From the NCBI GenBank assembly GCA_019163375.1, contig JAFLKK010000008.1:248001-312000 (forward strand): a stretch of 64,000 bases of DNA, written 5' to 3'. Within the stretch, counting starts at the first letter, position 1, and the number at the start of each line of letters is the position of its first letter. This stretch comes from Paludibacter sp. GTDB taxonomy: Bacteria; Bacteroidota; Bacteroidia; Bacteroidales; Paludibacteraceae. The position numbers and the translations under genes are program-made. Below are positions 28,767 through 31,741 of this stretch, in pieces. The notes beneath the pieces are model-generated. The model did not search any database. It worked only from the letters and a program-made list of their open reading frames with translations, and had not been told where the DNA came from.

Positions 28767-28775
28767 CAAAAACTA

Positions 28776-28824
28776 ATGCATAATTCATAATAGATAATTC
28801 ATAATTCACAATTCATAATTCATA
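28776..28824 (+). repeat. Heptad array H5 (ATTCATA-type), upstream of lysS
   Basis: Seven 7-bp units: ATGCATA, ATTCATA, ATAGATA, ATTCATA, ATTCACA, ATTCATA, ATTCATA. It overlaps the lysS -33 region. Confidence 0.8.
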
Positions 28825-28931
28825 ATTGGGAACTTGAATGCCAAAATGAACTAATCAAAATGAGATTCAAGGCTATCGATTTCTATTTTTCACACTTAAT
28901 CAATTCAATATAAAAGCATTTCCCACTTTAA

Positions 28932-29079
28932 TAATTTCAATTATAACAGACACAATTGTTTATTTTACAATATATTTCAATTATAACAGAAACAACTTAC
29001 ATTTTTATTATTTATTTCAATTATAATAGAAATAATTACTATATTTGCAGTGTATTTCAATCATAACAGACACAAAATG
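28932..29079 (+). repeat. Four dyad repeats at exact 40-bp period, operator-like
   Basis: The core ATTTCAATTATAACAGA recurs with its first base at 28934, 28974, 29014 and 29054, exactly 40 bp apart. Copy 3 reads TTTCAATTATAATAGAAA, a palindrome at 16 of 18 positions; the others are less symmetric. Intervening sequence is A/T-rich and not conserved. The last copy ends a few bases before the ATPase start codon, and a -7 box lies between copies 3 and 4. Best read as binding sites for a dimeric regulator. Confidence 0.8.
29040..29047 (+). promoter_or_regulatory. -7 box TATATTTG before the ATPase gene
   Basis: Exact TAnnTTTG match 30 bp before the ATG at 29077, between dyad copies 3 and 4. Bound regulator would block it. 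Confidence 0.55.
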
Positions 29080-30282
29080 AAAACTGATAACATAAGTCGT
29101 CCTGTATATATCGATAAAATTAAACCATTTATCGGAAAACAGATTATCAAAGTACTTACAGGTCAGCGTCGTGTAGGTAAAAGTTATATTCTATTACAAT
29201 TGATTGACGAAATCAAACAAATGTATGCCGATGCGAATATTATCTATATAAATATTGAGCATCACGAATTTGACACTATCCGTACACATACCGCATTATA
29301 CGAATATGTTATACGAAACATTGTATCAACGAAGCAAAATTTCTTGTTAGTTGATGAAATTCAGGAAGTAAAATCATTTGAACTATGCTTACGATCTTTA
29401 CTGGCAGAATCTAAATGCGACATTATTTGTACCGGTAGTAATGCAAAAATGCTATCGGGTGAACTAGCTACAACATTATCAGGACGATATATACAATTTC
29501 CTATCTATTCTTTGAGCTATAAAGAATTTCTTCAATTTCACAAATTGGAAAACATAAACGAAAGTTTGACCCTTTACCTAAAACTTGGTGGAATGCCTTA
29601 TTTAATTCACACGGGTTTAGATGAATCGGTTGTTACAGAATACCTTAAAAACGTAAATTCGACAATTCTTCTCAAAGATGTTGTAGCTCGAGAAAACATC
29701 CGCAACGTTTCCTTTCTCGAAAACTTAACAGCATTTTTAGCTGATAATACGGGCAGTTTACTCTCTGCATTAAACATCAGCAAATACCTAAAATCGCAAT
29801 TGCAACAAATACCCACTCAGTCCGTTCTCAATTATCTTCGAGCCTTGACAAATGCATACTATGTACATAAAGTTCAACGCGCCGAAGTGAAGGGATTAAA
29901 AATTTTCGAAGTGGGTGAAAAATATTATTTTGAGGATTTAGGTCTACGAAACGCTATCCGACATTTCGATTACCGAAGCGACGTAAATAAATTAATGGAA
30001 AATGTAGTTTATTTACATCTCAGACGAAATGGCTATACTGTTTTTATTGGTCAATTGGGACAAAAAGAAGTCGATTTCATGGCTGAAAAAAACGGAGAAA
30101 GACTATATATACAAGTAACTTACATGCTTATTGATCAACAAACAATCGACCGCGAATTTGGGAATTTAATGCTTATCGACGATCACTATCCTAAATATGT
30201 AGTTACAATGGATGAAATTTCTGCCGGTTCTGATTTTAAAGGTATAAAACAAGTTCATTTACGGGAATTTCTTTCTATGTAG
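29077..30282 (+). CDS. AAA-family ATPase with DUF4143
   Basis: 401-residue P-loop ATPase of the AAA_14/DUF4143 type. Walker A is TGQRRVGKSYILLQL, Walker B is FLLVDEIQEV, and a sensor-like IICTGSNAKMLSGEL follows. The C-terminal DUF4143 ends in EVDFMAEKNGERLYIQVTYM, which resembles a PD-(D/E)xK nuclease-like core (E-D...QV). These ATPases are multicopy in many Bacteroidota genomes, and their role is unknown. The start at 29077 is the first ATG after the repeat array; an earlier in-frame ATG at 29050 lies within the last repeat. The gene stands alone and its leader holds four phased dyads, so it is probably tightly regulated. Confidence 0.88.
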   Translation: MKTDNISRPVYIDKIKPFIGKQIIKVLTGQRRVGKSYILLQLIDEIKQMYADANIIYINIEHHEFDTIRTHTALYEYVIRNIVSTKQNFLLVDEIQEVKSFELCLRSLLAESKCDIICTGSNAKMLSGELATTLSGRYIQFPIYSLSYKEFLQFHKLENINESLTLYLKLGGMPYLIHTGLDESVVTEYLKNVNSTILLKDVVARENIRNVSFLENLTAFLADNTGSLLSALNISKYLKSQLQQIPTQSVLNYLRALTNAYYVHKVQRAEVKGLKIFEVGEKYYFEDLGLRNAIRHFDYRSDVNKLMENVVYLHLRRNGYTVFIGQLGQKEVDFMAEKNGERLYIQVTYMLIDQQTIDREFGNLMLIDDHYPKYVVTMDEISAGSDFKGIKQVHLREFLSM

Positions 30283-30316
30283 TTTTTTTACAACAAATAC
30301 AATTTATACAAATATT

Positions 30317-31741
30317 ATGACCGAATTAACGAACCTTTTTCAAAACTTTACCCACGAAAATATAATTAGTGATACCGAACTTTCAGCTTCGGGTTCCAAC
30401 CGCCGGTATGTGCGACTGCAAGGTGAGAAAACCACTCTGATAGGTGTGGAAGGCACTTCGCTGGAAGAAAATAAGGCTTTTATCGGAATGGCTCATCATT
30501 TTACCAGTCAGGGATTGCCTGTACCCGCGGTATTGGCACAATCGGAAGACGGCATGTTTTACCTGCAGGAAGATCTGGGCGACACTTTGCTTTTCGACGC
30601 TATTGCCGAGGGACGCAAAACGGGTGTTTTTTGCGAAGCCGAAAAAGAATTGCTCCGCAAAACCATGCAGAAACTTCCCGCCATACAGGTATTAGGCGCG
30701 CAGGGTTTCGACTTTTCGGTGTGTTATCCGCAACCGGAATTCAACGAACGGTCTATTCTTTGGGATTTGAATTACTTTAAATACTGTTTTCTGAAATCAA
30801 CAGGGCTGGAGTTTCAGGAAAACCTGTTGGAAGACGATTTTGTACGCCTCTCGGAAGTGCTGCTCCGCTCCCACTCCAACACCTTTATGTACCGCGATTT
30901 TCAGAGCCGGAATGTAATGATAAAGGATGATGAACCCTATTTTATCGACTTCCAGGGCGGACGAAAAGGCCCATTGTATTACGATGTAGCTTCGTTTCTG
31001 TGGCAAGCCAAGGCACAATACAGTGCCGAACTAAAAGAAGAATTACTACAAATATACCTGGACGCATTGCAAAAACTAATGCCTGTTGACGAAGCGGATT
31101 TCCGCCTGCAGTTGAAGCATTTTGTTCTTTTCCGCACTTTGCAAGTGTTGGGTGCTTACGGATATCGCGGCTACTTTGAGAAAAAACCACATTTCCTGCA
31201 AAGCATTCCTTTCGCTCTCGAAAATCTACGCGTCATCCTACGCAACGAATTTACCGAATATCCCTACTTGCTGGAGGTGCTGAACCAGATGACCGAATTG
31301 AAACAATTTACCGAAGTGGAAGTGCGAAAACCTTTGATAGTGCGGGTGTATAGTTTTTCGTACAAAAAAGGAATTCCGCAGGACAACTCAGGCAATGGAG
31401 GTGGATTTGTGTTCGACTGCCGCGCGGTAAACAATCCCGGCAAATATGAACGCTACCAAAGCCTCACCGGACTGGACGAATCGGTAAAGAAATTCCTAGA
31501 AGACGATGGCGAAATACTTAGCTTTATCGATCATGCTTTTGCGTTGGTGGATGCATCGGTAAAACGCTACAAAGACAGAGGATTTACCCATTTAATGATT
31601 AGTTTTGGCTGTACGGGAGGGCGCCATCGCTCGGTATATTCAGCCCAAAAAATGGCCGAGCATATCCACGAAAAATTTGGCGTGGAAGTACAGTTGATAC
31701 ACAGGGAACAGAATATTGAATCGAAGTTTCCAAGCAAATAA
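30317..31741 (+). CDS. amgK: AmgK-like sugar kinase fused to a RapZ C-terminal domain
   Basis: 474-residue two-domain protein. Residues about 10-330 are an aminoglycoside-phosphotransferase-like kinase with catalytic YRDFQSRN (D194, N199) and metal-binding IDFQGG (D211), the pattern of AmgK, the anomeric MurNAc/GlcNAc kinase. Residues about 340-466 match the C-terminal domain of RapZ, including GCTGGRHRSV (431-440); in enterobacteria that domain senses glucosamine-6-phosphate and binds small RNAs. The next gene is a MurU-type uridylyltransferase, so the pair would recycle cell-wall MurNAc to UDP-MurNAc. The fusion suggests that recycling is gated by amino-sugar level (inference). Kinase specificity is inferred from motifs and neighbour. 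Confidence 0.82.
   Translation: MTELTNLFQNFTHENIISDTELSASGSNRRYVRLQGEKTTLIGVEGTSLEENKAFIGMAHHFTSQGLPVPAVLAQSEDGMFYLQEDLGDTLLFDAIAEGRKTGVFCEAEKELLRKTMQKLPAIQVLGAQGFDFSVCYPQPEFNERSILWDLNYFKYCFLKSTGLEFQENLLEDDFVRLSEVLLRSHSNTFMYRDFQSRNVMIKDDEPYFIDFQGGRKGPLYYDVASFLWQAKAQYSAELKEELLQIYLDALQKLMPVDEADFRLQLKHFVLFRTLQVLGAYGYRGYFEKKPHFLQSIPFALENLRVILRNEFTEYPYLLEVLNQMTELKQFTEVEVRKPLIVRVYSFSYKKGIPQDNSGNGGGFVFDCRAVNNPGKYERYQSLTGLDESVKKFLEDDGEILSFIDHAFALVDASVKRYKDRGFTHLMISFGCTGGRHRSVYSAQKMAEHIHEKFGVEVQLIHREQNIESKFPSK

Follow-up and report, generated by a model that had tools for sequence, protein, structure and literature searches.

We infer that an AAA_14-DUF4143 ATPase of 401 amino acids, encoded on the plus strand at positions 29077–30282 of the window (the whole 64,000-nucleotide stretch of DNA analyzed here), is its own sequence-specific autorepressor and would act as cooperative dimers bound across its promoter, a reading to which we give a probability of roughly 0.84. 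The gene was recognized by Pfam and PADLOC matches, and its product matches the HMM of the PADLOC phage defence candidate PDC-S01 (PDLC04787) over its full length (E = 6.9e-143, residues 1–400). According to PMC12988326, PDC-S01 ranks fourth in frequency among prokaryotic defences, and most candidates of this kind still await validation. We found no mechanism or regulation described for PDC-S01, and the operators and the residue-base rule presented below are new here. From comparative sequence analysis, autorepression appears to be the simplest reading of the dyads, their strict spacing and their placement at the promoter.

The original prediction had proposed four near-palindromic repeats at an exact 40-bp period in the leader of the ATPase gene, and we recovered these as four 24-bp imperfect dyads, without strand, spanning 28932–29075. 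Operator 1 lies at 28932–28955 (7 of 12 pairs complementary), operator 2 lies 40 bp downstream at 28972–28995 (8 of 12), operator 3 at 29012–29035 (11 of 12), and operator 4 at 29052–29075 (6 of 12), so that copies 1, 2 and 4 are the imperfect palindromes of the set; 20,000 random 24-mers of the window average 3.1 complementary pairs, and 0.4% of them reach 8. The core ATTTCAATTATAACAGA starts, as had been reported, at 28934 and 28974 with no mismatch and at 29014 and 29054 with one mismatch each, and a count by hand confirms that 16 positions of the 18-bp core of copy 3 are palindromic. Between copies 3 and 4 lies the predicted -7 box, TATATTTG (29040–29047, plus strand), so named since it fits TAnnTTTG, which we take to be the Bacteroidota -7 consensus; its start lies 12 bp ahead of operator 4, the commonest offset among homologues. 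Judged from this box, operator 3 would sit at the expected Bacteroidota -33 element, while operator 4 would overlap the expected transcription start and the leader, ending at 29075 just before the ATG at 29077.

Within the window, TRF reports a repeat of period 40 with 3.7 copies at 28930–29075. When up to three mismatches are allowed, the 17-base core matches the window five times, copy 3 being matched a second time on the minus strand; 100 dinucleotide shuffles averaged 0.73 matches and never reached 5. The same scan found no match outside the array. A genome-wide search for the dyad, suggested by the original prediction, was informative for the pair and not for the single site: across 4.66 Mb, a 40-bp-spaced pair (at most three mismatches) gave three matches, all overlapping within the array, whereas single 16-mers at the same tolerance gave 180 matches vs 123 for a reversed control pattern, which is uninformative. 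The best match off the array (one mismatch) sits between listed ORFs, and by eye no second site was noticed near it. That the array might be a chance AT-rich tandem repeat like others in the window, a reading encouraged by the 7-bp and 14-bp tandem repeats found nearby, is hardly credible given its conservation in homologues and the gene-specific spelling of its sites, to which we now turn.

Homologues of the ATPase (E ≤ 0.001) were found in 254 of 300 family genomes, 291 of 393 order genomes and 135 of 395 phylum genomes, and, among the best 80 of 575, on contigs labelled Pedobacter, Bacteroides, Treponema, Fibrobacteria, Desulfobacteraceae, Oribacterium, Phascolarctobacterium and others. They also occur on 236 of 72,556 plasmid records and at 51 viral-contig loci. 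Acinetobacter accounts for 174 of the 236 plasmid records with a homologue. For the discovery set, 259 loci were reduced to 256 (L037 has no start; L235 and L267 are truncated), then to 242 that differ in their first 200 residues and have 200 nt or more of upstream sequence, and finally to 191 with less than 80% protein identity.

A 20-base direct repeat with at least 16 matches is present in 155 of the 242 upstreams, compared to a shuffle mean of 13 of 242, and the best repeat lag is 39–41 in 125 upstreams and 80 in eight. This layout persists as redundancy is removed: below 80% identity the repeat is found in 119 of 191 upstreams, and below 60% identity in 48 of 82, of which 39 have a lag of 39–41 or 79–81. 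Control upstreams, taken from 232 other ORFs of loci L212–L291 and the window, contain the repeat in 23 cases, with lag 40 in two and lag 80 in one; these controls are less AT-rich (63% vs 71%), and shuffles were therefore needed as a second background. Absence of the repeat upstream of orthologues had been named as evidence that would count against the array; at these lags the layout is kept in 100 of 191 homologues and is rare in controls (3 of 232). In the validation sets described below, repeats at lag 39–41 are rarer, occurring in 6 of 49 viral-contig, 4 of 28 phylum and 20 of 60 remaining upstreams.

A matrix for the dyad tells a similar story at the level of single sites. Among the 191 non-redundant genes, 166 have at least one site and 123 at least two, the counts per upstream being zero sites in 25, one in 43, two in 79, three in 35, four in 8 and five in 1, which places the window's four sites near the top of the homologue range. 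Adjacent sites are 39–41 bp apart in 151 of 177 gaps. The matrix, which was trained on the same genes, gave 343 real matches after removal of overlaps vs 19 in one mononucleotide shuffle. Occurrence of at least one site rises with identity to the window protein, from 4% of 23 genes at 20–29% identity to 34% of 90 at 30–39%, 76% of 160 at 40–49%, 97% of 101 at 50–59% and 16 of 16 at 60% or above, where these bins keep redundant genes and the last includes the window's own. The expectation of a conserved dyad before orthologues thus stood for the 40-bp architecture and the outer frame, and failed for the exact 18-bp sequence, whose inner bases vary by gene; because the inner block differs between genes, we dropped exact-sequence conservation as a measure. 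Taken as an operator array for a dimeric, oligomerising regulator, the proposed interpretation is well supported by the conservation of the layout and its rarity in controls.

The iterated weight matrix describes a palindromic 24-bp operator with the half-site W W N T w T N4 (T/C)A, in which the information content is about 0.3 bit at each position of the N4 block (-6 to -3) and at -10, compared to 1.7 at the core position -1. In 40-bp gaps between sites, the motif TAnnTTTG was found in 59 cases and starts 11–13 bp before the second site in 53 of them; a narrower search segment yielded the box in 51 of 107 last and 4 of 45 distal gaps. Where the -7 box is found, the dyads overlap the gene's own promoter. 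In arrays of at least three sites, spacing is 39–41 bp in 44 of 54 distal gaps vs 34 of 44 promoter-proximal gaps, and distal spacing as strict as proximal spacing suggests that the binder, not the promoter, sets the 40-bp period. The same grammar is seen by eye around a sigma-70-like promoter in Lachnospira eligens, where the second dyad falls in the 17-bp spacer. A CRISPR array was also considered; the position before a gene and the alignment to a promoter argue against it.

To compare the variable inner bases, we counted matches among the eight N4 bases of two sites. Sites of the same gene share 5.54 of 8 bases (327 site pairs, redundancy kept), while sites of paralogues from one genome share 3.08 of 8 (90 site pairs from 22 same-genome gene pairs, drawn from a hand-typed genome map with redundant genes kept) and random sites share 3.2. 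Across different genomes, proteins at least 70% identical have sites with 4.9 to 6.7 N4 matches. Judged by these counts, the inner N4 spelling is a property of the gene and not of the cell, which argues against one cellular regulator. A separate regulator encoded elsewhere could in principle bind the array and control the ATPase, and separate regulators of defence genes do exist: the available text of PMC12255303 describes RptR, which controls an E. coli defence island and, like the binder proposed here, acts as a dimer on a series of direct repeats in a defence promoter, but is a separate small regulator with a 6-bp TAGCTA palindrome. Control of this kind is nevertheless improbable for the ATPase, since inner blocks of same-genome paralogues are unrelated (3.1 of 8, random 3.2), no neighbour is conserved in 78 loci (the largest shared neighbour family occurs in 4 of the 78 named-genome loci), and base -6 of the operator tracks a residue inside the ATPase itself.

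The AlphaFold2 model of the ATPase (pLDDT 91.4, pTM 0.91) offers a candidate DNA-binding element. The AAA_14 domain matched by Pfam covers residues 24–152 (29146–29532, plus strand, as for all coding features here), and its Walker-type residues G29, G34, K35, D93 and E94 are kept in 217 of 217 homologues. Helices at residues 211–223, 231–240 and 247–259 are followed by strands at 263–270 and 276–285, and we read residues 211–285 (29707–29931) as a predicted winged helix-turn-helix in which residues 247–259 (29815–29853) would be the recognition helix and 248 its second residue. About residues 299–401 (29971–30279) appear, from the model and the alignment, to adopt a PD-(D/E)XK-like fold. In this region D333 is present in 216 of 217 homologues and Q346 in 217 of 217, K373 is invariant, and D333, Q346, R359, E360 and K373 are kept almost without exception in the clade. 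The canonical lysine site of PD-(D/E)XK (position 348), by contrast, is occupied by A, T, S, C or V in all 217, and the complete catalytic motif D...(E/Q)xK is absent from the 217 homologues aligned. These observations offer a reading of DUF4143, in the PDC-S01 clade studied, as a predicted winged helix followed by a nuclease-like fold without the usual lysine.

NCBIfam gave no match for the two proteins tested, and a PDB sequence search with the ATPase gave none at E 0.01. Foldseek placed Cdc6/Orc1 on origin DNA at the top of its list (TM 0.29–0.31) and also listed NLR resistosomes, Card1 and VC1899, with TM-scores to the query of 0.16–0.46; in our view the Card1 and VC1899 matches probably cover the C-terminal part of the ATPase. 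Orc1/Cdc6 proteins combine an AAA+ ATPase with a winged helix, and 2qby is by title such a protein bound to DNA. The window protein may share this layout, with a predicted winged helix and weak fold similarity (TM about 0.3); it differs in lacking a PDB sequence match, in its Pfam assignment (AAA_14/DUF4143), in its extra C-terminal nuclease-like domain and in having its sites over a promoter. Similarity to the STAND/NLR ATPases (7dfv, 9qlv) likewise lies in the fold (TM up to 0.46), but the window protein has no leucine-rich or other sensor domain in Pfam and apparently uses its winged helix on DNA. The top matches to initiators on origin DNA, the position of the repeats next to an AAA+ gene and the occurrence of homologues on plasmids (236 of 72,556 records) might suggest that the array is an iteron- or origin-like assembly site for which autoregulation is secondary. 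We regard this as very unlikely: the Cdc6/Orc1 TM-scores are low, the second site of a pair keeps a fixed offset from any -7 box found, and just two sites are present in 79 of 191 genes and only one in 43.

One residue of the predicted recognition helix, 248 (Q248 in the window protein, codon at 29818–29820 on the plus strand), tracks operator base -6. In 5,704 gene pairs (50–92% identical), after overall identity was regressed out, operator agreement correlates best with agreement at this residue (r = 0.40), and the next-best protein column reaches 0.21. By mutual information in 168 non-redundant genes, residue 248 with bases -6, -5 and -4 forms the top three column-base pairs. K or R is associated with C-4, D with C-6 and G-5, Q, E or T with C-6, and N with T-6; as read from the sequences, these trends would make chemical sense, C-4 being a guanine on the other strand for K or R. 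Outer bases -8 to -12 associate by mutual information with L232, in the second helix of the HTH, and V279, in the wing; other columns outside the winged helix-turn-helix reach similar scores.

Pairs of genes were used to test this link against shared descent. Among 89 disjoint nearest pairs, inner-block similarity is 0.81 when residue 248 agrees (mean identity 0.71) and 0.62 when it does not (mean identity 0.62), and with identity regressed out 25 of 20,000 permutations were as high. For the same pairs, outer bases score 0.89 vs 0.82 and the core 0.96 vs 0.96. In the column ranking from these pairs, 248 takes second place among 352, on a par with M173 and A51, which lie outside the helix, and the top nine include P246, Q248, S249 and N252 together with M173, A51, E129, S112 and V186. 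Discordant pairs followed the trends by 64:2 (3 ties) for Q, E, D or T with C-6, 39:1 (3 ties) for N with T-6, 12:0 (2 ties) for K or R with C-4 and 8:0 (1 tie) for D with G-5, where the pairs, though disjoint, fall short of strict independence and the genes that gave the rules are part of the set.

Relatedness and residue identity can be set against each other directly. For 204 genes, base -6 matches at 0.533 in distant genes (<50% identical) with the same residue 248, compared to 0.349 in the three nearest genes with another residue and 0.333 in all distant genes; the distant genes with the same residue did better in 130 cases and worse in 58 (n = 188). Outer bases instead follow relatedness, with distant same-residue genes scoring 0.442 vs 0.611 for near relatives at -8 and 0.349 vs 0.435 at -10. 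At -5, -4 and -3, distant same-residue genes among the 204 match no better than near relatives, and hence residue 248 explains only part of the N4 block. In 1,029 column-base tests on -6 to -4, the gain for 248 with -6 is 0.200 and the next is 0.067.

The rules were noted after the viral and phylum loci had been fetched and before their upstreams were examined, the remaining loci being fetched later; the range noted was L343–L351 and the range analyzed L343–L370, and some genes come from genomes that also gave discovery genes. From 139 validation loci, 137 and then 102 divergent genes were retained, of which 36 have a detectable site and 66 do not. Residue 248 was shuffled as the control, and column-wise comparisons were made on the whole set. 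For the -6 rule, testable in 33 genes, the predicted base occurs at a frequency of 0.70 vs 0.45 when shuffled, 0 of 2,000 shuffles being as high, and the majority base is correct in 20 of 33. The rule linking D to G-5 (10 genes) gave 0.70 vs 0.42, with 11 of 2,000 shuffles as high and the majority base correct in 6, while the rule linking K or R to C-4 was correct in 0 of 2 testable genes and is kept only as a lead. The sequence link between residue 248 and base -6 is accordingly well supported, and support for links to other bases is partial. From this covariation, the candidate binder of the array would be the winged helix of the ATPase itself.

The setting of the gene bears on whether the dyads might serve mobility. 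In 3 of 19 relatives examined (L434, L435, L437), lysS directly neighbours the APH gene, with no ATPase between them, so that the ATPase and its operators look like a one-gene insert. In another relative (L440), a different, nucleotidyltransferase-type gene pair, HEPN/MNT-like by eye, lies between lysS and APH, and in L441 a similar pair ahead of APH has Pfam matches to NTase_sub_bind and Polbeta; the remaining 15 relatives have no lysS match in the fetched DNA, which reaches at most about 1.5 kb before APH, and mostly carry other genes there. The lysS-APH gap may be an insertion hotspot. Beside lysS, a tandem 7-bp repeat, TAATTCA, occupies 28774–28827, with similar repeats scattered in the window and a similar run in the relative L435. 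The insert-like appearance of the gene would fit dyads that are cleavage or mobility sites for the nuclease-like domain of a homing-like element. This idea is highly improbable, as the canonical PD-(D/E)XK lysine is missing in 217 of 217 homologues, the sites are aligned to the promoter, and no core match (at most three mismatches) lies outside the array in the window, homologues having been scanned in upstream DNA only. Downstream, the ATPase stop is followed after only 34 bp (30283–30316) by the start codon, ATG, of a gene for an APH-RapZ_C fusion (30317–31741). A TATCTTTG box precedes the APH gene in the relatives L433, L434, L435 and L438 and was not seen in the 57 bp before the APH gene in the window, suggesting that insertion may have put the APH gene under the ATPase promoter.

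One observation counts against the wider idea of phased dyads before all paralogous ATPases: the genome has one other DUF4143 gene (L454), and it lacks the 40-bp array. Of 30 loci of its type (L454–L483, the L031 type), two were dropped, and 0 of the 28 usable upstreams have a 16/20 repeat at lag 39–41, so these loci do not share the 40-bp array; 6 of the 28 have a repeat at lag 32–34, and 9 match the dyad matrix. By eye, this canonical DUF4143 clade (L031, L454–L483) often has, in place of the 40-bp array, a single long palindrome (about 33 bp) close to the promoter, and operator architectures may thus differ between DUF4143 groups.

Proteins that repress their own genes through a winged helix are known. 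For the autorepression that we favor, the winged helix within the DUF4143 region (211–285) would bind the 24-bp dyads as a dimer, residue 248 would help read the variable inner bases of the half-site, chiefly -6, and contact between neighbouring dimers would fix the 40-bp spacing; as 40 bp is just under four helical turns, the dimers would lie roughly on one face of the DNA. The promoter-proximal pair would flank the -7 box, its two sites covering the -33 region and the start point, respectively, and bound protein should therefore block RNA polymerase. Each paralogue would have drifted to its own inner-base spelling, and several copies per cell would then not silence each other. Release of repression may be linked to phage sensing, and ATP may also play a role.

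Autorepressed toxin-antitoxin operons with paralogue-specific operators resemble this arrangement in their self-encoded repressor, dyads over their own promoter and private spelling per paralogue; they differ in that the ATPase, winged helix and nuclease-like parts are here in one protein, with no conserved partner gene seen. Self-repression with diversified addresses and a residue-base rule was not found for this ATPase family in the titles and abstract openings listed from the open-access literature searched. More tentatively, and on balance doubtfully, the clade might be viewed as mutually insulated, DNA-addressed ATPase switches that silence themselves by ATP-dependent cooperative assembly and release an effector when grip is lost. 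Residue 248 and its neighbours would then write a private inner-base address, and the grip could give way, for instance, when a phage alters the ATP state of the protein or when incoming copies of the address titrate it away; address diversity would let many copies share a cell and travel between phyla as one-gene modules.

With autorepression as the working model, one large PDC-S01 clade would gain a concrete activity to test, namely sequence-specific DNA binding, for which every gene has its own predicted site and a residue-to-base rule is at hand. The private spelling of these sites would, in turn, explain how several paralogues can coexist without mutual silencing.
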